Positions 458 through 17,792 of a stretch of 20,256 bases of DNA are shown here, one piece after another (the first letter of the stretch is position 1; every line of letters begins with the position of its first letter). Origin of the DNA: a virus. The notes beneath the pieces are model-generated. The model did not search any database and was not told the origin of the DNA. It was given only the letters and a program-made list of their open reading frames with translations. The stretch is from IMG/VR virus record IMGVR_UViG_3300045999_013045, positions 1-20,256 of that record. One strand, written 5' to 3'. The translations under genes and the position numbers were made by a program.

Positions 458-685
458 TTACGTCGTTATCTTGCTTTCCATTCTATCTTCTTGTGGAAAC
501 GTTGAATCCCAATCATCTTCTGGACTATCAACATCTAAATCCATCGTGTCAACAATATCCAGAAAACCATTGTCTTGTGCAGCAATACCTGTTCTGGAAA
601 CTCTTCTTGGATCATCTCCTAGAGTGGGAATAGCACTTTGAGCACTTGGACCTGTTTCAAATAGTATTTCGTATAACTTAGTCAT
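458..685 (-). CDS. small acidic protein with N-terminal LFE head-targeting-like motif
   Basis: A 75-residue acidic protein of unknown function. Its ATG at 685 overlaps the TGA of the upstream putative ADP-ribosyltransferase (ATGA), so translation is very likely coupled. The N-terminus MTKLYEILFETG closely resembles that of the upstream protein (MKLVDILFENS). Both carry an L-x-E element within the first ten residues, the kind of site the T4 prohead protease cuts in internal head proteins. The C-terminal half is Asp-rich (DSPEDDWDSTF) and likely disordered; the upstream protein has a similar DDWDFD stretch. It may be a packaged internal protein, an accessory to its neighbour, or a scaffold-type peptide. 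Coding status is supported by the overlap and shared N-terminus; function is unknown. Confidence 0.7.
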   Translation of the reverse strand: MTKLYEILFETGPSAQSAIPTLGDDPRRVSRTGIAAQDNGFLDIVDTMDLDVDSPEDDWDSTFPQEDRMESKITT

Positions 686-1503
686 TTGAGTAAATTTATT
701 AGTTCTGGGACAGGGTTTGTTGGTCCACTTATCTTCTTGTAAGCAACCTTGGATGCAGTAACATCTCCGTATGCCAATACTTCTTTTTGAAAGTCATAAG
801 GTGAACCACCAACAGAAAGATACTTCATTGCAGCATCAATGTTGAAAAAGAAAGGATTTGACTTGGTGTCACACTTGGCAAGAAGAACATACTTCTCCTC
901 TTTACTATCCTCTTCTTTTAAATATTCTGGTGGAAGATAAGGATGTTCTTCTTCTCTGTCTTCCACAGTTGTTGACTTTGCTGATTCGAACTTTGCTTGA
1001 CTATAAATTTTTATCGTTGCTTTTGCATCAAGAGTCCAACCAGTAAAACTAGAATCACTTCTGGGAGATATTACAACGTTGCTCTCGGTTCCAATCTGCT
1101 CGGTAACTTCCCTGTCAAGAATATTCTCTAAACTAGACTTGGAGAGTCCAATCAAAACTCGCCAAGCAGTTGCTGAAGGTACCGAAAAATAACTCTTGTA
1201 TTTTCCAGAATCACTTATTCTTTTCATCTCTTTAACAACGTTATTAAGCAGTTCTTTATTGTTAAACGAGGTATAAAAAACCAATGCGTTGTATATCTTT
1301 TTTTCAAGGTCTGTATCTGGCTCATTAATGTTTTGGCCAATAGATTTACGAATATCACCAAAAACATATTGGCCAAGACTTCCTCCATCTGGTTCGTCTG
1401 GTTCTTCTTTTGGTTGTTGCTTTTTTGGAGCAAGCTTACCTGTTCTTGGATCAAAGTCCCAATCATCCCAGCTGTTTTCGAAAAGAATATCAACTAACTT
1501 CAT
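682..1503 (-). CDS. putative phage mono-ADP-ribosyltransferase (Alt/C3-like motifs)
   Basis: A 273-residue protein starting at ATG 1503 with AGGAAGAG about 13 bases upstream. The frame stays open further into purA on the other strand, but that extension is rejected as a start. Residues 10-45 are an acidic/proline-rich linker after the N-terminal MKLVDILFE. The core has the three-part signature of R-S-E ADP-ribosyltransferases. R115 lies in a beta-strand-like segment (TAWRVLIGLS). An SSFTGWT segment at 151-157 sits where the STS strand is expected. QKEVLAYG at 239-246 gives a Q-x-E pair (Q239, E241) like the ARTT loop of C3-type enzymes. These enzymes move ADP-ribose from NAD+ to host proteins; T4 Alt, ModA and ModB act on RNA polymerase or translation proteins. 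The STS motif is degenerate (FTGWT), so activity is not assured. The target is unknown. Confidence 0.5.
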   Translation of the reverse strand: MKLVDILFENSWDDWDFDPRTGKLAPKKQQPKEEPDEPDGGSLGQYVFGDIRKSIGQNINEPDTDLEKKIYNALVFYTSFNNKELLNNVVKEMKRISDSGKYKSYFSVPSATAWRVLIGLSKSSLENILDREVTEQIGTESNVVISPRSDSSFTGWTLDAKATIKIYSQAKFESAKSTTVEDREEEHPYLPPEYLKEEDSKEEKYVLLAKCDTKSNPFFFNIDAAMKYLSVGGSPYDFQKEVLAYGDVTASKVAYKKISGPTNPVPELINLLK

Positions 1504-1605: not shown

Positions 1606-2730
1606 ATGCCAGCTGATGTAGTATTGGGTCTTCAATATGGTGATGAAGGGAAAGGTAAGGTTGTTGACTATCTTGCCAAAAACTATGAATATGTTGTAAG
1701 GTTTCATGGAGGTAACAACGCAGGACATACGCTTGTGGTAAATGGACACCGTATTGCTGTTCATGCTCTTCCTTCTGGAGTTCTTCATCCACATGTCAAC
1801 AACGTTATTGGGAATGGTTGTGTGATTGATCCAGAGCAGCTTGCCAAGGAAATCAATCAAGTAGGTGCGTCGAGTCTTGTTGGTCGTTTGTTTATTTCTC
1901 ATGCTGCTCACGTTATTCTTCCTACAGCTCGCACAGAAGATCAAGCAACAGGTAAAAAGGTAGGAACAACTGGACGAGGTATTGGTCCCACATATGCAGC
2001 TAAAATGCATCGCACAGGGTTGCGTATGGAAAACCTTGCAAAAGGTGAGTTGGATTCTCTATATCCAGAAGGCACTCTAGACGTTATTAAGCCTTTTGTA
2101 TCTGACACTACTAGCTTACTGCAAATGGCTGTTAAAAGCGGCGCTAATATTCTTCTAGAGGGTGCACAAGGCACTCTTCTTGATATTGATCATGGCACGT
2201 ATCCATATGTCACAAGTTCCAACTGTACTATTGGTGGAGCACTTACAGGAACAGGATTAAACCATAAATCTCTACGTAAGGTTATTGGTGTTGTTAAGGC
2301 ATATACAACACGGGTTGGAGAGGGACCATTTCCAACAGAACAAATGAATGAGATTGGTGATAAGCTTCGTGAAGTAGGTGGAGAATATGGCACAACAACA
2401 GGAAGAAACCGTCGTTGTGGTTGGCTAGATTATAATGATCTACGTCGAGCATGTGAACTTAATGGAGTTGATGAAGTTGTGATTACCAAGCTAGATGTAC
2501 TAGATGAATTTAAGATGATTCCTGTAGGTTATAGAGGTTTTGAAAATGGCCGTAAAGAGATTGTTTATTGTGATTGGAATGGCTGGAATCGTCCAACAAA
2601 AGGTTTGCGTGATAAAACAATGTTGCCACAGGATGCAATGAATTATATACAACATATTGCAGCAGTTGCCATGGCCCCAGTAACTCATATTTCAACATCT
2701 CCAGAAAGAGAAGACATGATTGTACTATGA
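1606..2730 (+). CDS. purA: adenylosuccinate synthetase (PurA), short form
   Basis: Catalyses IMP + aspartate + GTP to adenylosuccinate, the committed step to AMP, in the cytosol. ATG at 1606 is chosen because AAGGAG ends five bases before it; a GTG at 1585 in frame is less likely. The protein has 374 residues against about 430 in E. coli. Visible motifs are QYGDEGKGK (10-18, with the catalytic Asp at 13 as in E. coli), NAGHT with H41, GTTGRGIGPTY (120-130), EGAQG (185-189), the aspartate-binding TTTGR loop (263-267) and the guanine-recognising KLDVLD (295-300). The 36 residues missing between the GIGP motif and EGAQG make it like archaeal PurA and phage PurZ in length. PurZ, which makes 2-aminoadenine precursors, replaces the active-site Asp; it is retained here, so PurA (or a PurZ0-like intermediate) is the better call. 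It overlaps the next gene by ATGA. Confidence 0.93.
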   Translation: MPADVVLGLQYGDEGKGKVVDYLAKNYEYVVRFHGGNNAGHTLVVNGHRIAVHALPSGVLHPHVNNVIGNGCVIDPEQLAKEINQVGASSLVGRLFISHAAHVILPTARTEDQATGKKVGTTGRGIGPTYAAKMHRTGLRMENLAKGELDSLYPEGTLDVIKPFVSDTTSLLQMAVKSGANILLEGAQGTLLDIDHGTYPYVTSSNCTIGGALTGTGLNHKSLRKVIGVVKAYTTRVGEGPFPTEQMNEIGDKLREVGGEYGTTTGRNRRCGWLDYNDLRRACELNGVDEVVITKLDVLDEFKMIPVGYRGFENGRKEIVYCDWNGWNRPTKGLRDKTMLPQDAMNYIQHIAAVAMAPVTHISTSPEREDMIVL

Positions 2731-6793: not shown

Positions 6794-7309
6794 TCACTCA
6801 TAAAGAGTATCATCTGTATCTTCTTCTAAATAGCTTTCCGACTTAACTTTTGCTTTTTTTGTATTGGCAACAAACTGTTTGCGTCCACCTTGAGATTTAC
6901 TCTTCTTCTTCTTTGCTGTAGCTGCACGTTCCGTCTTAGACAAAGAGTAAGCCTTTGAAGCTGGAAGACAACGATCTGGGTTGCTTGTGTCTTTACTTGA
7001 TCCACACTCACCCTTCACTTCCCCAGAAGAGCTTATGCGTTTCCATTTTTCTTTAAACCAATCACGTAAATCTTCCATGATGATTTCTTTTAAAGCTTCA
7101 TCAAGCTCTATAGATTCGTTAGCTTTCTTTTTCTTTTTTCTCCAGCCACCGCCACGTTTCTTGTACCATTTAGAAGCCCACGCATTAGCATAAGCACTGG
7201 GATATTTGTCGAACTTACTTCTTGCAGCAGATTTTGCTCTTGACCATAGCTCGGGATTTGTTGGTGTGTTATCGCCTTCAAAAAGGAAATCAAAATCGTC
7301 GTCATCCAT
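6794..7309 (-). CDS. basic phage protein with DUF5872- and DUF6321-like domains
   Basis: A 171-residue protein. ATG at 7309 is preferred over an in-frame TTG at 7315. After an acidic N-terminus with LFE at 9-11 (MDDDDFDFLFEGD), residues about 19-60 contain ELWSRAKSAARSKFDKYPSA, then ANAWASKWYKKRGGGWRKK. I recognise this as the DUF5872 pattern found in large phages and giant viruses. Residues 79-125 (EDLRDWFKEKWKRISSSG, a CGSSKD turn and C114) fit the DUF6321 pattern. The C-terminus is Lys/Ser-rich. The family role is unknown. The basic character plus the N-terminal L-x-E element would suit a DNA-associated protein packaged in the head, but that is inference. The family names are from memory. 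Confidence 0.75.
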   Translation of the reverse strand: MDDDDFDFLFEGDNTPTNPELWSRAKSAARSKFDKYPSAYANAWASKWYKKRGGGWRKKKKKANESIELDEALKEIIMEDLRDWFKEKWKRISSSGEVKGECGSSKDTSNPDRCLPASKAYSLSKTERAATAKKKKSKSQGGRKQFVANTKKAKVKSESYLEEDTDDTLYE

Positions 7310-7390
7310 AGCCAATAACTATCTTACTTGTCTTGTTTTAGAAACAGTGTTAACACAAACAATAACCCAGATATCAACAAAACTGCAAGA

Positions 7391-9643: not shown

Positions 9644-9970
9644 TTACTTCCGCAAAACGTGTGGATTATCTTCTGGCAATATCTTCCAAAACTCACGTTC
9701 TAATGGTGGCTTGTCACCCTTTTTGAAGAACATAAGTTGGCGGCCATTTGCCTTGGTGCTGGGATACACACCAATAATCACGATATCCCCGGTATGAACA
9801 AGATTATGGCAGATAGCACAAAGGACAGCCAAGTTGCTCAAGTTGTTTGAGCACCTCGAATCTGCCCTTGGGATAATGTGATGAATATGAAGAGCGGCGG
9901 GATTGTTATAGCTGCAAACTTCGCAAGAAACCTTTTTCAAGGTTTCGCCTGTACGCTTTTTACGTTGCAT
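9644..9970 (-). CDS. HNH endonuclease
   Basis: A 108-residue nuclease. The chosen start is ATG 9970 (MQRKKRTGETLKK), inside the 3' end of the deacetylase gene with an 11-base overlap and GGAG ten bases upstream. A longer reading to 10111 would lie wholly within the deacetylase gene and is rejected. Motifs: C-E-V-C, then LHIHHIIPR with the catalytic His pair, NNLSNL with the Asn, and CAIC followed by HNLVH. The two CxxC pairs bind structural zinc. Such stand-alone HNH enzymes cut double-stranded DNA and are usually homing or packaging-associated. Lying beside tail genes and not terminase, homing or coupling to the deacetylase is more likely. Confidence 0.9.
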   Translation of the reverse strand: MQRKKRTGETLKKVSCEVCSYNNPAALHIHHIIPRADSRCSNNLSNLAVLCAICHNLVHTGDIVIIGVYPSTKANGRQLMFFKKGDKPPLEREFWKILPEDNPHVLRK

Positions 9971-10817
9971 CGATATAATGCTCCAAACAAGCTTGCAAAG
10001 TGTTGTTGTGAATATCCAACACGTTTTGCAACGGATGTTGATAACCACCAGCAAGATTCCACACAATAGGCTTGTTAAGCTTCTTCGCAACCTTAAAAAC
10101 AATATCGTCACGACGCTTCATCTGCTCGGTGGTAAGGTACCCACCAAGAGGATCATCAATATGAGGATCAGCACCAGCTTGGTAAAACAAAATATCACAA
10201 CCATGAAACTTTTCAATCAAATCAGCTTCAAGACGGTCAAGCCAACGATCAAAATTCATTCCAACCCTAGCAAAAGCACCAAACGTTAGATGCTCAATAA
10301 CATCCTGTGCACCATCAATACTCTTGATAATATCTTCGGTACCATCACCATAATGAGCATCAAAATCAATAATCCCAATCTTGTTAACTCCATGATTTTG
10401 CCACAGCAGCATTGCAGCAATCATAAGTCCATTAAACGTACAAAAACCATGACAACTGTTATATCCACTATGATGGAAACCGCTTGTAGGGCTCATTGCA
10501 GCCGTCTTATTTTCCAAGGCATACTCAGCCGCACGAAAGAAACTACCGGCTGTATAAGGCAAGCTAGAAGCTACAGAAGCCAACTTGTTACCAAATCCGT
10601 TTGGTTGACGAAGATTTAGAATGTCATCAACAAAACTAGATTCATGTGCAAGACAAATATCATCTTGAGTAAGAGGCATCCAACCACTACGCACATCAAC
10701 ACGACCTGTACGCATAAACTGATTTACAACATGCTCAGGCTTGCCAGCACTCGGAGAATAGCTGTTATTGTTACGAACAGTTTGATTGGGTGAATAAAAA
10801 ACCTTGAGATTCGCCAT
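9960..10817 (-). CDS. histone deacetylase-family amidohydrolase
   Basis: A 285-residue zinc-dependent deacetylase of the HDAC/AcuC/acetylpolyamine amidohydrolase superfamily, removing acetyl groups from lysine or polyamine amides. All catalytic elements are visible: the H115-H116 pair in SGFHHSGY, zinc ligands D153 and H155 in GIIDFDAHYGDG, the third ligand D217 in AGADPHIDDPLGG, and Y259 in GGY. The usual second His after DxH is Tyr here. At 285 residues it is compact compared with common bacterial members (about 300-375). The start at 10817 has GAGGAAAC upstream. The gene has its own host-like promoter and a strong terminator separating it from the tube gene, so it may be expressed apart from the structural genes. 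Substrate (host protein, polyamine or small molecule) cannot be told from sequence. Confidence 0.92.
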   Translation of the reverse strand: MANLKVFYSPNQTVRNNNSYSPSAGKPEHVVNQFMRTGRVDVRSGWMPLTQDDICLAHESSFVDDILNLRQPNGFGNKLASVASSLPYTAGSFFRAAEYALENKTAAMSPTSGFHHSGYNSCHGFCTFNGLMIAAMLLWQNHGVNKIGIIDFDAHYGDGTEDIIKSIDGAQDVIEHLTFGAFARVGMNFDRWLDRLEADLIEKFHGCDILFYQAGADPHIDDPLGGYLTTEQMKRRDDIVFKVAKKLNKPIVWNLAGGYQHPLQNVLDIHNNTLQACLEHYIDAT

Positions 10818-11522: not shown

Positions 11523-14500
11523 TCAGCCACCAACAAAGTTATTGCGGTTTGTTACGAAGAAGTCGATTGTGAAGAACTCTAGGGATGTGGTTGGGATTAG
11601 ATAAATCTTGCCACGAAGAGTTTTGTTATCTAGATCGGCTTGTGTTGTTGTTGTTGCATCGATAACAACTCTGTATCTTTCTACACCACCGGCTGCTTGA
11701 TAACGTGCCATGATTGGTTGAACAGCAGCGTTAAATGCTTGCAGTGTTGTTGATTGAGCTGGTTCGAACAAGAAGCGTGTTGCAACTTGACGTACATCAC
11801 GACGGATTGCAATCAAAAGTCTTCTTACGTTAACTCTGTTAAGCAAACTGTCTTTGTTGAGTAGAGTCTTTTGACCCCACACAACTGGACCAACACCTTG
11901 CTTGGAAAGCAGAAGGTTCAGTCTTGCCACGTAAAGGGTGTCAGAGTTGGCTTGGTTAAGAGCAACAGCAAAATCTGTTACGTTGGTTAGTGTACCTCTT
12001 GTAAAGCCTGCTGGTGCGTTGAAGGATTGACCAACTGTATCGTTCTTAGCATATGCACCAAGAACTGCAACAGAGGGTGGCATTTTTTCATATACAACAC
12101 CAGTGTTTGTTACGATGTTTACGTCTGGGAAATAAGCTGCTGCAAAGCTGCTGTTTACTCCACGAGTAACGAACTGTTGCGCTGTTTGTGAAACGTTAAC
12201 TGCTTCATAAGAGCCAGTTAGTGATGTGCCGTTGGCATCATATTGTTCTGGGTCCATGATGTAGAAGCAATCAAAGCGATCATTTTCTACAGCGTTGATT
12301 GCTGTGTCAGTTACGTAACGTACACGAATACCGGGCATTGTAAGAAGTTGGATATTAACGTCGTTAACATCTGAGATAATCCCAATGCTTTTCATGTAGC
12401 TTTGTACGGTTGGCCCGTTTGTTAGTCCACGGGTTGTTTGTGTGATTTCTTGAGCAACGGCTGCATTCTTAAGATAACGTGTGTCTGGATTAAAGATACG
12501 TGTTCCGTCGAAACCACGTTCGAGATAAAAGCTGAACTTAGCCAAACGTTGTACTGCGGCATTTTCAACAAGGTCACTTACTGACAAAGCTCTTGTTTTT
12601 GTTGCTTCGTCGGCAGCAATGTTTCCTGCACGAACATAACTCCAGCTTAGAAGTGCTGTTGTGCTTGTGTTTGGTACGTCGCCGCTACCTGTTACAACCT
12701 TAACTTTTTCTAGAGAGAAAAGGTTGTTGTTAAACAAGTCTGAGTCAATGATACCGTTTGCTGTTGTGGTAGCAGCACCGTTGTTATCAAACACTGCTGG
12801 TTGCACGTTTGTTGAACCTTCAAGATTTGGATAATACTTGCTGAACCCAAGTAAGCTTGGGTTAAAGATAGAACTTCCATTTGGGTCAGTAAGGCTTGTT
12901 ACGTTTTGGAACTGAACACCCCAGTAAAGACCTGTATCAACACCAGAAGAAGCAGACAGCTTCTTAAGATTTAGACGCATTGGAACAGGTGGTTGTGATG
13001 CTTTATAAAGTGGTACTCCACCACCTAAGCCACCTGCAAGAGTAGAGAAGTATGGGAACGCTGGGTCTAGTAGATCACCTTGTTTGATATTGTAAAGTGA
13101 GCTTGAACCTTGTGTTACAAGGTGTTGTGGACCACGGAAACCAAAAGGCATCGCTGAAGGATCGATTTCACCAGCATCTACTGCATCTGCAACTTCAACA
13201 CGAACGTAACGAGAGTTGTTTGGATAAGATCCATCTGTTGTTACTTTTTGTGAAGCTGTATCTGTGTCAAAGTTAAAAAAGGTGTTTATGTTGCCGATTT
13301 TCTTGGCAATATAGTTTGGTGAAGTTGGATCGAGTGAGCAGTTTGTAAATGTTTCCAAAGCTGCGTCGTTATCAGTTGAAGTCATTGAACGAACAAGAAC
13401 TGTAAACACACCGTATGGTTGTGTTGCTGTTCCGGGTTGAATGTTAGTGATTGAGATTTTTACATCACCATTGCTTGCTTCACCGTCTGAGAGATGGTGA
13501 AGGCGGAAAAGGTTTTGTGGTACTCCACCAAATCCTTGAGAAATAACCCAAGGTGAGAATGCGTGACCATAACGATCTTGGAAGCCTTCAAAGTTTGGTG
13601 TAATAGCTGAACCAATGTTTGATGTGTGGGTTGCGAGTGCGCCTGAGCTTGGTACCAAGAATGCGATGTTTTCTTTTGTGCCGTAAGCAGAACCCGATTC
13701 AACCAAAACAACTCCAGAACCTGTTGGAACTGCAAGAGCAGAGAATACATCAAAGCTACCATAAAGCAAGTGACCAGCTTCTTCTGTTTTAAGCGGATCG
13801 GTATTCAAAACGCTTGGGAAGTAGTTCGCAGCTTGTGGATCAAAGCTTGCAGTAATAACGTTTGGATAACGTGCATCTGTTCCTTTGTGACCATTAAGCA
13901 GCATCACAAAGCTTTGTTGGCCAGAGGCAAGTTCAACTGAGCCAGTGAAAGCACCAGAAAAACTTGATTCTGTGGCAACAAAGCTTGAAGCTGGGGCTGC
14001 TGAAGGTGCTGCTGCTGATGACAAACGAAGCACAACTCCAGAAGGAGCAAACACCACACCACGAATGATTGGTACAGATGTTGTTGAAGTTTGCAAGCTG
14101 GCATCAGAGAATACAGTTGAACCTACTGATTCACTCATAAAGCAGCCAAGCATATACACAGAGCCAGTTACGCCTGTTGCATTTGCAAAAACGTTATTGC
14201 CGAGAGCACCGACACTTCCACTGGGCTGTTGAGAACCAACAACGAAACCTGCATCTGTTACAGTTCCGTTAGCATTTCGTGCTAAACCTTGACCAGCCCC
14301 AAGTACTCTTAGTTGCATGAGTGGTACAGCTGTGTTGCTAAACCATTCTCTTGCTGAAAGATAACCTAGTGGAGTGTTAGCGTTTACACCACCAAACACT
14401 GAAACATATTGTGTTAGTGTTGTTGCCATAATAGGAACAAAAGCTGGTCCTTTGGCCGTTGTAGATATTACCAACGCAGGAACTCCTGATGGTGAGCGAG

Positions 14501-14558
14501 TTGTTGGTTGACTTATATCAAACTCTCTTGCTAGTACGCCGGGGCTTAGTTGTGCCAT
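11523..14558 (-). CDS. tail sheath protein, second copy (T4 gp18-like)
   Basis: A 1011-residue contractile sheath protein. The N-terminus has the family pattern (SPGVLAREFDISQPTTRSPS, then KGPAFVPI at 36-43). The C-terminal domain carries the conserved sheath core: PVVWGQKTLLNKDSLLNRVN, VRRLLIAIRRDVRQVATRFL, a V-E-R-Y-R-V-V-I-D strand and a final SLEFFTIDFFV. T4 gp18 has 659 residues; the extra ~350 here lie in the middle and probably form surface domains. It is a paralogue of the gene upstream (14673-17792), sharing KGPAFVPI, PFGFRG, an A-Y-F-P-[DN] site and the C-terminal core, but is well diverged from it. The start at 14558 has CGGAGAT upstream. The tube gene follows by 51 bases. Confidence 0.93.
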   Translation of the reverse strand: MAQLSPGVLAREFDISQPTTRSPSGVPALVISTTAKGPAFVPIMATTLTQYVSVFGGVNANTPLGYLSAREWFSNTAVPLMQLRVLGAGQGLARNANGTVTDAGFVVGSQQPSGSVGALGNNVFANATGVTGSVYMLGCFMSESVGSTVFSDASLQTSTTSVPIIRGVVFAPSGVVLRLSSAAAPSAAPASSFVATESSFSGAFTGSVELASGQQSFVMLLNGHKGTDARYPNVITASFDPQAANYFPSVLNTDPLKTEEAGHLLYGSFDVFSALAVPTGSGVVLVESGSAYGTKENIAFLVPSSGALATHTSNIGSAITPNFEGFQDRYGHAFSPWVISQGFGGVPQNLFRLHHLSDGEASNGDVKISITNIQPGTATQPYGVFTVLVRSMTSTDNDAALETFTNCSLDPTSPNYIAKKIGNINTFFNFDTDTASQKVTTDGSYPNNSRYVRVEVADAVDAGEIDPSAMPFGFRGPQHLVTQGSSSLYNIKQGDLLDPAFPYFSTLAGGLGGGVPLYKASQPPVPMRLNLKKLSASSGVDTGLYWGVQFQNVTSLTDPNGSSIFNPSLLGFSKYYPNLEGSTNVQPAVFDNNGAATTTANGIIDSDLFNNNLFSLEKVKVVTGSGDVPNTSTTALLSWSYVRAGNIAADEATKTRALSVSDLVENAAVQRLAKFSFYLERGFDGTRIFNPDTRYLKNAAVAQEITQTTRGLTNGPTVQSYMKSIGIISDVNDVNIQLLTMPGIRVRYVTDTAINAVENDRFDCFYIMDPEQYDANGTSLTGSYEAVNVSQTAQQFVTRGVNSSFAAAYFPDVNIVTNTGVVYEKMPPSVAVLGAYAKNDTVGQSFNAPAGFTRGTLTNVTDFAVALNQANSDTLYVARLNLLLSKQGVGPVVWGQKTLLNKDSLLNRVNVRRLLIAIRRDVRQVATRFLFEPAQSTTLQAFNAAVQPIMARYQAAGGVERYRVVIDATTTTQADLDNKTLRGKIYLIPTTSLEFFTIDFFVTNRNNFVGG

Positions 14559-14672: not shown

Positions 14673-17600
14673 TCAGATACTAACTCCTGATGGAAGAACA
14701 ACAAAGTCCATGACGATGTATTCGATTGCTCTTGTTGGAAGCACTCGGATTTGAGCATTCATGCGGTTGCTGTTAACATCTTCAGCGGTATTGTTACGTT
14801 CATCGCAGATTACTGCAAACTGTTCGATACCTTGTTGTGTTTGCACCGTTGAAAGAACCAAGCTAGCTTCATTAACAAAACGTGTACGAAGTGCTGGTGT
14901 GTTTTGCTCAAAGAGCAAACGGTTACCGATTGCAACAATTTGACGCTTGATTTCTAGTAACATTCTTTTAACGTTAATAGATTCCAAAGCACTTTCTGCT
15001 TGTTGCAATGTGTTTTGTGAGAAGAACACATAGTTGGCACCGGGGAACTTCACGATTGGGTTAATGTTGGCATCGTAAAGTGTGTTGCGATCATTTTGGT
15101 TTACTCTTATTGAAGTAAGAAGTACAAAACCAAGAGAACCACGATCAAACCCTGCTGGAGCGAACCAAGGGAACTTAACACGGTCGTTATAGCTCAATGC
15201 TGAGAGAGCAGCGATAGAAGCTGGGAGTTGTACACGGCGAGTGTTTACGGTGTCTTCAATAACGATGTTTGGGAAGTAAGCTGCACCACCGTTGTTGTCC
15301 AACGCACGGTTTATAAATGCATTAGATGTTTTGTTGATGGAAATAAATCGATTTGATTCACCATCAAAGATACGAACATCGTCTTTGTCATATGGTTGAA
15401 TGTCAAGAAGGTAGAAGCTCAAACCATAATCTGTGTTTTTCTCTAGTGCGTAGTTTGTGATAAGTGGATCACGTTGACCGGGTGTTGCAAGAACGTTGTT
15501 GTTTGCAATGCTTGTGTTGGTTGCAACATCAAGTGCTGTGCGATATGCAACAACGTTTTGGTTTGCAGATCCAACACCTGTGTAGTTTGTTAGAGCAGGA
15601 GCACCGGGAGAGACGTAGCTTGCGTTTGCAAGGCCGTATACACCACCAGCACCTGCTTCTGTAGATGTTGATTGATCTGTAAAGCGAGCAGCTTGTTTGT
15701 CAAAGATGTTAACACCATCCCAACCACCTTGCATGAATGTGGTAAACTTAGCGTAGTTAGAGAAGTTGTTAAACTGAACTGCGCTACTGCTGTTAACCAA
15801 CGAAGCAAAAGTAATACGGTTGCTGTAGTTTGTTGCAACATATGTTGTTGGATCGATTGTTGCGTTACGAAGATATGCAGCAGATTTCATAAGTGTTAGA
15901 ACATCTGTGGAAGCTACAGATGTCATTGAAGTGGCATTAAGAGCAACGTTTGCAAGAGTAAACTTGTTGTTGTTCAAAACGTCGCTAGCTGAACCAGTTG
16001 TGAGAACTTCTAGTTTTTCAATACCAGAGAACTTGGCAAAGTTTGCTACGATTGGGTTGATTGCTGCATTAACGTTAACGTTTAGAATATCGTTATTGTT
16101 ACGTTCGAACTTAACACCCCAGTATAGTCTTCCATCTACAACTGTTTGAGCGCCGGGGGCACCAAAGGTTGTACCAGAAGCAGTTAGTGGGTTACGTGTA
16201 ACTGTAAAGCGATATGGAACAGGTGGTACGATTGAACCAGACAGCAAACCTCCGTTTGGTACTGTGCTTGAAGATACACCAGTAATACGAGCTGTTGACA
16301 AAGGTAGCGTTCCAGCTAATGTATCTGAGAACGTTGTGTTTGTTAGCAGCATTTGATGACCACGGAAACCGAATGGAAGAGCTAGCTCTGGTACTTCATC
16401 ATTTTCCAGTTGTGAGCTTGGAACAACACGAATAAATCTGCTGCGATTACCATATTTTCCTTCAACAACGATACCACGGTCTTCTGCTTCAACTTGATCG
16501 AAGTTAAACTTGGTGCGTTTGTCACCAATCACTCTAGCAACATATTGGCTGCTATTTGGATCAAGTGACAGATTATTGAACTGTTCAAGGATTTGTGGTT
16601 GTTCGTCGCTGTCATTAAATGCTCTAACAGACAAAGTAAATGAACCATATTTTGATGATGGGTTTGTTGATGCTAGCAAGTTTGAAATGCTGATTTTGTA
16701 TTTATCGTTTGCAAACGCACCATCATCACGGCTTTCTACGTAGAATAGATCGTATTCAATTCCACCAAAAGGCTGTGAAACAAAGTATGGTGTTTTTGGT
16801 GTTTTGTAACGTGTATCAAATCTTCCAAATACTTTGCTAAATTCAAGACCAAGAGAGTTTATGTTAGCTGAACCAGAAAGAACAGCAACAGTTGGCACAG
16901 CATTGCTTGATGAAAGCGTTGCAACTTGTGAGTCTACAGCATAGTCAAGATAAAGAAGATGCTTCTTTTCTGCAAAGTTTTCTGGGTTTGTGTTTAGAAT
17001 CTTGCCAACATATTGATCTGAGTCTGGGTCGAAAGATGCTGAAAAGATTTGAAGACCTGCAAAACCATCGTCGGAAGAAAATGTAGAACCAGCAGAGCAA
17101 GAAAGCACGAGCTTGAACATTCCTTGTAGGGGGCCAGTTGTGCCAACTTGAGCGGCTTCATTGGTACCATTTCCAGCAGCAGCGGCTGCTGGATTGTATA
17201 GACCACCAGAATCTACTGCGCCGCTAAGAACAAGAAAGCGTGAATCTGGGGTAGTGAACAATACAGCACGAACAAGATTTACACCATCGTTATCTGGTGT
17301 AAAACCGTTAACAGTATAGCTGTTGTTGTTGGTAAATATTGGATAACCAAATACTTCGTTGTTTTGTACAAAGTGCTTACCAACCAAGAACTGTACACGG
17401 CCTTGAAGGGCTCCAGAAGCGAACGTAATACCACTACCAACAACTTGCATACCAGCATTTGTCACAGTACCACTTACTTCTGTTTGTGATATATCCAAAG
17501 ATGAACTGTTGGCACCACAACCAAGAACACGAATGTAGTTTACAGAAGCTACTTCGCTACCTTTAGCTTCAAGAAATTTTTGTACGCCGTATGTGCCAGC

Positions 17601-17792
17601 ATACTTCGAGTTAACAGGTCCAAACTTGTTTGAAAAATCTGTGTAACTTCCAAGGGTTATTGGCACAAAGGCTGGGCCTTTTTCTGCACCGCCGATAATG
17701 GTTGCTGGTGTTCCACCAACAGGTACTGTACGTTCGGTTAAGTCGAACTCTCTATCGAAATAATTGGGGGCTTTTAATACTGTTTCTGGCAT
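14673..17792 (-). CDS. tail sheath protein, first copy (T4 gp18-like)
   Basis: A 1039-residue contractile sheath protein and the larger of two tandem paralogues. N-terminal family pattern: APNYFDREFDLTERT, then KGPAFVPI at 38-45, and a V-x-Y-I-R-V-L-G strand. The C-terminal core reads YVFFSQNTLQQAESALESIN, VKRMLLEIKRQI, the I-E-Q-F-A-V-I-C-D strand, then RAIEYIVMDFVV. The large middle part, with Ser/Thr/Ala/Gly-rich beta segments, is absent from T4 gp18 and should project outward. The start at 17792 has GAGGAT upstream. It follows the gp15-like gene, so the first copy takes the position of gp18 in the T4 order but without terminase genes 16 and 17 between. Confidence 0.93.
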   Translation of the reverse strand: MPETVLKAPNYFDREFDLTERTVPVGGTPATIIGGAEKGPAFVPITLGSYTDFSNKFGPVNSKYAGTYGVQKFLEAKGSEVASVNYIRVLGCGANSSSLDISQTEVSGTVTNAGMQVVGSGITFASGALQGRVQFLVGKHFVQNNEVFGYPIFTNNNSYTVNGFTPDNDGVNLVRAVLFTTPDSRFLVLSGAVDSGGLYNPAAAAAGNGTNEAAQVGTTGPLQGMFKLVLSCSAGSTFSSDDGFAGLQIFSASFDPDSDQYVGKILNTNPENFAEKKHLLYLDYAVDSQVATLSSSNAVPTVAVLSGSANINSLGLEFSKVFGRFDTRYKTPKTPYFVSQPFGGIEYDLFYVESRDDGAFANDKYKISISNLLASTNPSSKYGSFTLSVRAFNDSDEQPQILEQFNNLSLDPNSSQYVARVIGDKRTKFNFDQVEAEDRGIVVEGKYGNRSRFIRVVPSSQLENDEVPELALPFGFRGHQMLLTNTTFSDTLAGTLPLSTARITGVSSSTVPNGGLLSGSIVPPVPYRFTVTRNPLTASGTTFGAPGAQTVVDGRLYWGVKFERNNNDILNVNVNAAINPIVANFAKFSGIEKLEVLTTGSASDVLNNNKFTLANVALNATSMTSVASTDVLTLMKSAAYLRNATIDPTTYVATNYSNRITFASLVNSSSAVQFNNFSNYAKFTTFMQGGWDGVNIFDKQAARFTDQSTSTEAGAGGVYGLANASYVSPGAPALTNYTGVGSANQNVVAYRTALDVATNTSIANNNVLATPGQRDPLITNYALEKNTDYGLSFYLLDIQPYDKDDVRIFDGESNRFISINKTSNAFINRALDNNGGAAYFPNIVIEDTVNTRRVQLPASIAALSALSYNDRVKFPWFAPAGFDRGSLGFVLLTSIRVNQNDRNTLYDANINPIVKFPGANYVFFSQNTLQQAESALESINVKRMLLEIKRQIVAIGNRLLFEQNTPALRTRFVNEASLVLSTVQTQQGIEQFAVICDERNNTAEDVNSNRMNAQIRVLPTRAIEYIVMDFVVLPSGVSI

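Follow-up and report, generated by a model that had tools for sequence, protein, structure and literature searches.

The window analysed here is the complete IMG/VR record IMGVR_UViG_3300045999_013045, 20,256 bases long, a fragment of an uncultured giant T4-like myovirus that encodes a tail tube, two sheath proteins and adenylosuccinate synthetase (purA). Its minus strand carries a gene for a protein that we call P0001, which an earlier note had read as a possible ADP-ribosyltransferase (ART) packaged like T4 Alt. We consider it likely that P0001 is an ART of the R-S-E type that bears an N-terminal tag, is trimmed by a phage protease, and is delivered from the head as an injected effector, with both activity and packaging predicted from the sequence and from a structural model. 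The gene, its motifs and the adjoining open reading frame (ORF) lie as follows.

682-1503, minus strand: whole ORF of the ART-like gene, 273 amino acids (coding sequence 685-1503, stop codon 682-684).
1477-1503, minus strand: N-terminal tag MKLVDILFE, with a predicted prohead-protease cut after E9, from the tag surveys below and the L-x-E specificity of T4 gp21 (PMC9026906).
1198-1377, minus strand: residues 43-102, the N-terminal helical part, with a conserved G-x-Y-x-F-x(3)-R and G-x-Y common to most paralogues.
1159-1161, minus strand: codon of R115, first residue of the catalytic motif, the invariant and putatively NAD-binding arginine (alignment and model).
1033-1041, minus strand: G155-W156-T157 at the position of the S-x-[ST] motif, with an invariant tryptophan and glycine in place of the first serine.
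781-789, minus strand: Q239-K240-E241 at the ExE/QxE position, with an invariant, putatively catalytic glutamate and glutamine in all four orthologues.
458-685, minus strand: partner ORF P0002, 75 amino acids, made of a MTKLYEILFE tag and a 65-residue acidic tail.
656-685, minus strand: the MTKLYEILFE tag of P0002.

The motifs that the earlier note had listed, R115, SSFTGWT at residues 151-157, Q239-x-E241 and the N-terminus MKLVDILFE, are all present, and its remark that the STS motif is degenerate holds, with G155 aligning with the first serine. We rejected the triad on its own as a significant feature, since a loose R..S.S..[QE]xE arrangement occurred in 3,245 of 5,000 shuffles of P0001 (65%); in a single protein the R-S-E motif is therefore a lead and not yet evidence. 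P0001 used alone gave no match in Pfam, PHROGs, PDB sequences or, by tblastn, 50,697 phage records, and patterns of eight exact residues found nothing in viral contigs. The shuffles and the absence of a library match are what could be said for reading P0001 as an unrelated protein, not an ART, that has the motif by chance; we regard this as very improbable in view of the triad's invariance in 11 diverse homologues and of the predicted fold, whose top matches are ARTs only.

As direct searches with P0001 found no relatives, these were retrieved via the sheath and tail tube genes. A two-row profile of P0001 and a weak match, P0003, reached further members, and a four-row profile was then run over the 40 records behind the sheath- and tube-related loci, where it hit six records at ten distinct places, of which two recur as duplicates in near-identical records. 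G003, a record of 260 kb, holds four copies of the ART family, and the record G007 holds two. Identity to P0001 is 70% for the orthologues L117 and L118 and 34-35% for the orthologue L119. Among the 11 homologues only R115, W156, F218, E241, G246 and V248 are fully invariant, and it is through this alignment, with R115 and E241 unchanged, that the triad becomes significant. Most paralogues have canonical motifs (YRG, SW[ST] and E-x-E), a canonical paralogue being encoded at 103215-103916 of G003, and from these motifs the orthologue group differs consistently, with AWRV for YRG, GWT or SWS for SW[ST], and Q-x-E for E-x-E. The counterpart of G155 is serine in L119 (SWS) and in most paralogues, and glycine in P0001, L117 and L118; Q239 is shared by the four orthologues, the position being mostly glutamate elsewhere.

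The glycine in the first STS position of P0001, L117 and L118, together with the change from YRG to WRV, could mean that the ART fold is kept while catalysis is weak or dead, so that the orthologue group would be NAD-binding, inhibitor or scaffold proteins, still delivered from the head. We hold this to be rather unlikely, because the arginine and the catalytic glutamate are invariant at 34-70% identity and L119 keeps SWS; furthermore, ARTs of the C3 type, which also have QxE, are active enzymes. An active R-S-E transferase remains the reading that we prefer.

No bacterial relatives were found by a scan of genome contigs and, among the phage records tested, family members were absent from T4, Mel-JY01, immuto and two uncultured giants, while Sinorhizobium phage phiN3 gave only a weak local profile match to the family. 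A profile search of PDB with the ART-family alignment A5 returned chance matches only. Judged from these sequence comparisons, the ART family is new and carries no library annotation.

The predicted fold supports the assignment. A single-sequence AlphaFold prediction was uninformative (predicted local distance difference test score, pLDDT, 36.7), and AlphaFold2 on the 11-row alignment gave a mean pLDDT of 78.6 and a predicted template modelling score of 0.74, with 120 residues at 90 or above and a core above 90. R115 lies inside strand 112-121, the first core strand of the model; GWT lies in strand 153-157, followed by a long helix and then by strand 204-212; and strands 241-245 and 248-257, opened by E241, lie near the C-terminus. 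This order of strands and helices fits an ART, and the split beta-sheet is present as a prediction. The earlier note had proposed structure prediction as a check, naming a model without the ART fold as one refutation; the topology obtained was that of an ART. The fold search that it had also proposed gave, in PDB, only R-S-E ARTs with E below 0.1, although weakly: all seven such Foldseek matches were chains of pertussis S1 or cholera A1 (E 0.02-0.09, prob 0.16-0.57), and the next match stood at E 0.78. These toxins are the closest solved structures by fold, at very low identity and with weak scores, and P0001 differs from them in having QxE for ExE and in its phage origin, with action on bacteria presumed. 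The best match in BFVD, and the best viral one, was phiN3 gp122 (AKF13389.1; E 6e-5, prob 1.00), an unannotated protein of 167 residues with the R-S-E-like motifs FRG, SWTTD and EEFE, but without the tag. Pfam gives a single hint for gp122 (L235:1294-1797), a weak resemblance to dinitrogenase reductase ART at a sub-threshold E of 0.16; the Sinorhizobium host of phiN3 is nitrogen-fixing.

The likeness to T4 Alt that the earlier note had proposed can be kept for the mode of action, namely an ART in the head, trimmed at its N-terminus and injected with the DNA, and has to be given up for sequence kinship, none being detectable with Alt or ModA. The ART-family profile A7 had no match in the T4 genome with an E-value of 10 or less, and hhalign of the family with ModA gave a probability of 1.3% with an alignment only around the arginine; the family is therefore outside the Alt and Mod families. 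Alt is also much larger, with a gene of 2,049 bases against the 273 residues of P0001, and it starts MELITELFDE where P0001 starts MKLVDILFE. The Alt propeptide has 7 residues (PMC9026906), and the tag of P0001 is nearer to the capsid-targeting sequences of the T4 internal proteins.

In the relatives' genomes the tag recurs far beyond chance, which bears out the attention that the earlier note had paid to the L-x-E in MKLVDILFE. A fixed tag pattern, composed after tags had been seen and applied to mechanical gene calls, with a few matches possibly false, was found at 28 of 354 ORF starts in G003 versus 0 of 1,074 internal methionines. In G001, which is closely related to the window phage, it was found at 9 of 153 ORF starts versus 0 of 465 internal methionines. 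The outgroup phages G014 and G024 had it at 0 of 563 and 0 of 325 ORF starts (888 in total). An earlier, broader pattern had matched 21 of 354 ORF starts in G003 versus 3 of 1,080. We estimate from the fixed pattern that G003 encodes about 25-28 tagged proteins.

The tags of G003 stand on unrelated proteins and include MKLYDILFE, MKLYSILFE and MKLFEILFE. MKLYHLIYE is the start of a Nudix enzyme (E 1.4e-18), MKLDKFLYE and MKLTSLLYE are the tags of ARTs, and the variant MKLYPIIYLNE is found on a set of tandem paralogues; the tagged set as a whole includes four ARTs, the Nudix enzyme and several paralogue clusters. Alignment of the tandem family places the glutamates of ILY-E and IIYxN-E in one column, followed by alanine or glycine. 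The tag codons vary, so that conservation is at the protein level and a conserved DNA signal was rejected as an explanation. Scanning IMG/VR for DNA encoding MKLYxILFE gave 17 stretches, several contigs holding at least two copies. The tagged proteins of one further record, G055, include further R-S-E ARTs, and some tagged proteins appear, by eye, to resemble ARTs of the H-Y type. The tag sequences had no match in the literature searched.

Several of these tagged genes lie together. At about 134-144 kb in G003 (L162:13908-17961 and L163:1-4300) there is an island of about a dozen, with the Nudix gene, three paralogues that match no family, and a gene whose product (YHATRKS..NAVYLTH) appears to be an ART of the H-Y type. 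Six tandem paralogues starting MKLY[PQ][IL][IM]Y[LT][NH]E, none of which matched Pfam or PDB, lie at L156:4325-9092 of the same genome, and a homologous array lies at L200:6183-9403 in G001. The tagged product of L160:18647-19375 in G003 has a kinase-like GAGMNGAAF..VLKL stretch and no Pfam match, and is possibly an injected kinase. Profile searches of PDB with two other tagged paralogue sets gave no match; that two tagged paralogue sets look acetyltransferase-like is a guess.

The tag can be connected to the head through the prohead protease. T4 gp21 cleaves after [LI]-x-E; the capsid-targeting sequence of T4 comprises residues 1-10 of IPIII, of which 4 and 7 serve targeting and 8 and 10 serve processing (PMC9026906). 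Both ipII and ipIII of T4 start MKTYQEFIAE-A, a layout close to MKLYxILFE, and the tag has the form of a short N-terminal propeptide ending in [IL]-x-E and common to unrelated cargo. The prohead protease family PF03420 is present in 7 of the 10 relatives' records, among them G001, G003, G005 and G007; the relatives encode a T4-type portal, and their major capsid protein has an L-x-E (LNE, LRE or LKE) at the junction before its mature part. A protein starting MKLYSILFE follows directly after the protease gene in two other phages, and in one of these (locus L248) it lies between protease and scaffold. The packaging idea of the earlier note has gained support from this tag on many unrelated proteins of sister phages that have a T4-type prohead protease.

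As the tag is read from sequence alone, the ART might instead be made after infection like T4 ModA and ModB and stay unpackaged, the tag sorting it elsewhere, for example to the membrane or to a replication compartment. We find this improbable, given that L-x-E fits cutting of the gp21 type and recurs at the capsid-protein junction, that a protein with the tag at its start lies between protease and scaffold, and that the tag resembles the start of T4 ipII and ipIII. A head-cargo label, trimmed by the protease, is the best reading of the tag.

Some points weigh against a packaged and active ART. No profile library or PDB sequence search matched P0001 to any ART, and no cultured phage carrying the gene was found by tblastn. 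Glycine at position 155, in place of the first STS serine, may reduce or alter activity. The AlphaFold alignment had 11 rows only, canonical paralogues included, and the PDB fold matches are weak, with prob at most 0.57. The window, moreover, is a 20-kb fragment with neither a protease nor a capsid gene.

With these points weighed, the course of events that we propose is the following. P0001 would be a mono-ADP-ribosyltransferase of the R-S-[Q/E]xE type, made late in infection, and MKLVDILFE would act as a capsid-targeting peptide that takes the precursor into the prohead core, where a gp21-like phage protease would cleave after E9. The mature enzyme would remain in the head with the DNA, enter the new host at infection, and there consume host NAD+ in modifying a protein of the host, or possibly a nucleic acid, which would be an early step of host takeover or anti-defence. 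P0002, which has the same tag, would probably travel with the ART. By analogy with characterised ARTs, the Q-x-E form suggests a target other than arginine.

Comparison of the locus among relatives suggests how such a gene may come and go. P0002 lies immediately downstream of the ART gene with an ATGA overlap; it adjoins the ART in G003 and G008 as well, and in G007 it is fused to the ART C-terminus, ART and P0002 homologue forming one ORF (184327-185352, L119). The joint in G007 reads ILFPLGE-SGPS where the window has ILFE-TGPS; an L-x-E site is therefore kept there too, and the joint may be a second cleavage site. G001 has neither the ART nor purA, and its P0002 keeps the upstream leader and the first tag codons of the ART, joined to P0002 from LFE onward. 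The breakpoint is therefore inside the tag; either two tag sequences recombined and the ART was lost, or the ART was gained there.

The adjacency in the window, G003 and G008 and the fusion in G007 would also suit a toxin-antitoxin-like pair, in which the acidic, disordered-looking P0002 neutralises or chaperones the ART until delivery. We give this little credence, as P0002 is retained in G001 without any ART, has its own tag, and could hardly be used as a free antitoxin when fused. Since such a pair would be compatible with packaging, it would be a mere refinement of the head-delivered ART proposed above.

On balance we also favour, with less assurance, a wider proposal, namely that uncultured T4-like jumbo phages of one clade fill their heads with at least 20 different small tagged effectors. 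Recombination inside the DNA that encodes the tag would add or remove such effectors, so that the injected set can be read from the DNA. This arsenal would comprise several R-S-E ARTs, apparent H-Y-type ARTs, and Nudix, kinase-like and acetyltransferase-like proteins, each with one interchangeable cleavable tag. The T4 internal proteins IPI, IPII and IPIII are alike in their targeting sequences of about 10 residues with an MK start, a hydrophobic centre and an [IL]-x-E end, and in their unrelated cargo. T4 has three of them, whereas G003 would have about 25-28, enzymes included, with the consensus MKLYxILFE or MKLYPIIYxNE. Packaged ARTs are common in myoviruses, with T4 Alt as the prototype, and ARTs occur in more than 40% of jumbo phages, about 44% of phage ARTs lying in contexts that suggest packaging (PMC9503650). 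Those packaged ARTs and the polyvalent proteins (PMC5512222) are likewise injected effectors, of ART, GNAT, kinase and Nudix types among others, but they are linked by MuF or portal fusion, by gene neighbourhood or within a single giant polypeptide, whereas here separate small proteins are linked by a common cleavable tag. The novelty would thus lie in a new ART family and, more so, in a single cleavable tag on dozens of unrelated effectors.

To learn which proteins a phage injects normally takes virion proteomics, and in uncultured phages they can hardly be learned at all. Provided that the tag does target its bearers to the capsid, a single short pattern would suffice to list the injected effectors of an entire clade, the majority of them unmatched in family libraries, and it would become directly testable which proteins act at the very start of infection, in its first minutes. 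The idea of the T4 internal proteins, three in number, would then extend to dozens of proteins in a modular system, with the addition of an ART family of unusual Q-x-E form.

Other features of the window are the following.

1606-2730, plus strand: adenylosuccinate synthetase gene purA, transcribed divergently from the ART gene.
6794-7315, minus strand: DUF5872 protein whose N-terminus ends DFLFE-G (DDILFE-G in the G001 homologue), a possible but weaker tag candidate.

The purA gene is a syntenic neighbour of the ART in G003, G007 and G008, and is missing along with it in G001. Its product in the window has about 374-381 residues and keeps the GDEGKGK motif, and the PHROG name is PurZ. Identification as the 2-aminoadenine enzyme PurZ is unsupported, since GDEGKGK is kept, which we take to indicate, probably, an ordinary PurA. 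A histone-deacetylase-family protein (PF00850, E 7.4e-31) is encoded at 9960-10817 on the minus strand beside the tail tube gene, an unusual location for such an enzyme. The two sheath proteins, encoded in tandem on the minus strand at 11523-14558 and 14673-17792, differ from each other, exceed 1,000 residues each, and are about 1.5 times as long as T4 gp18.
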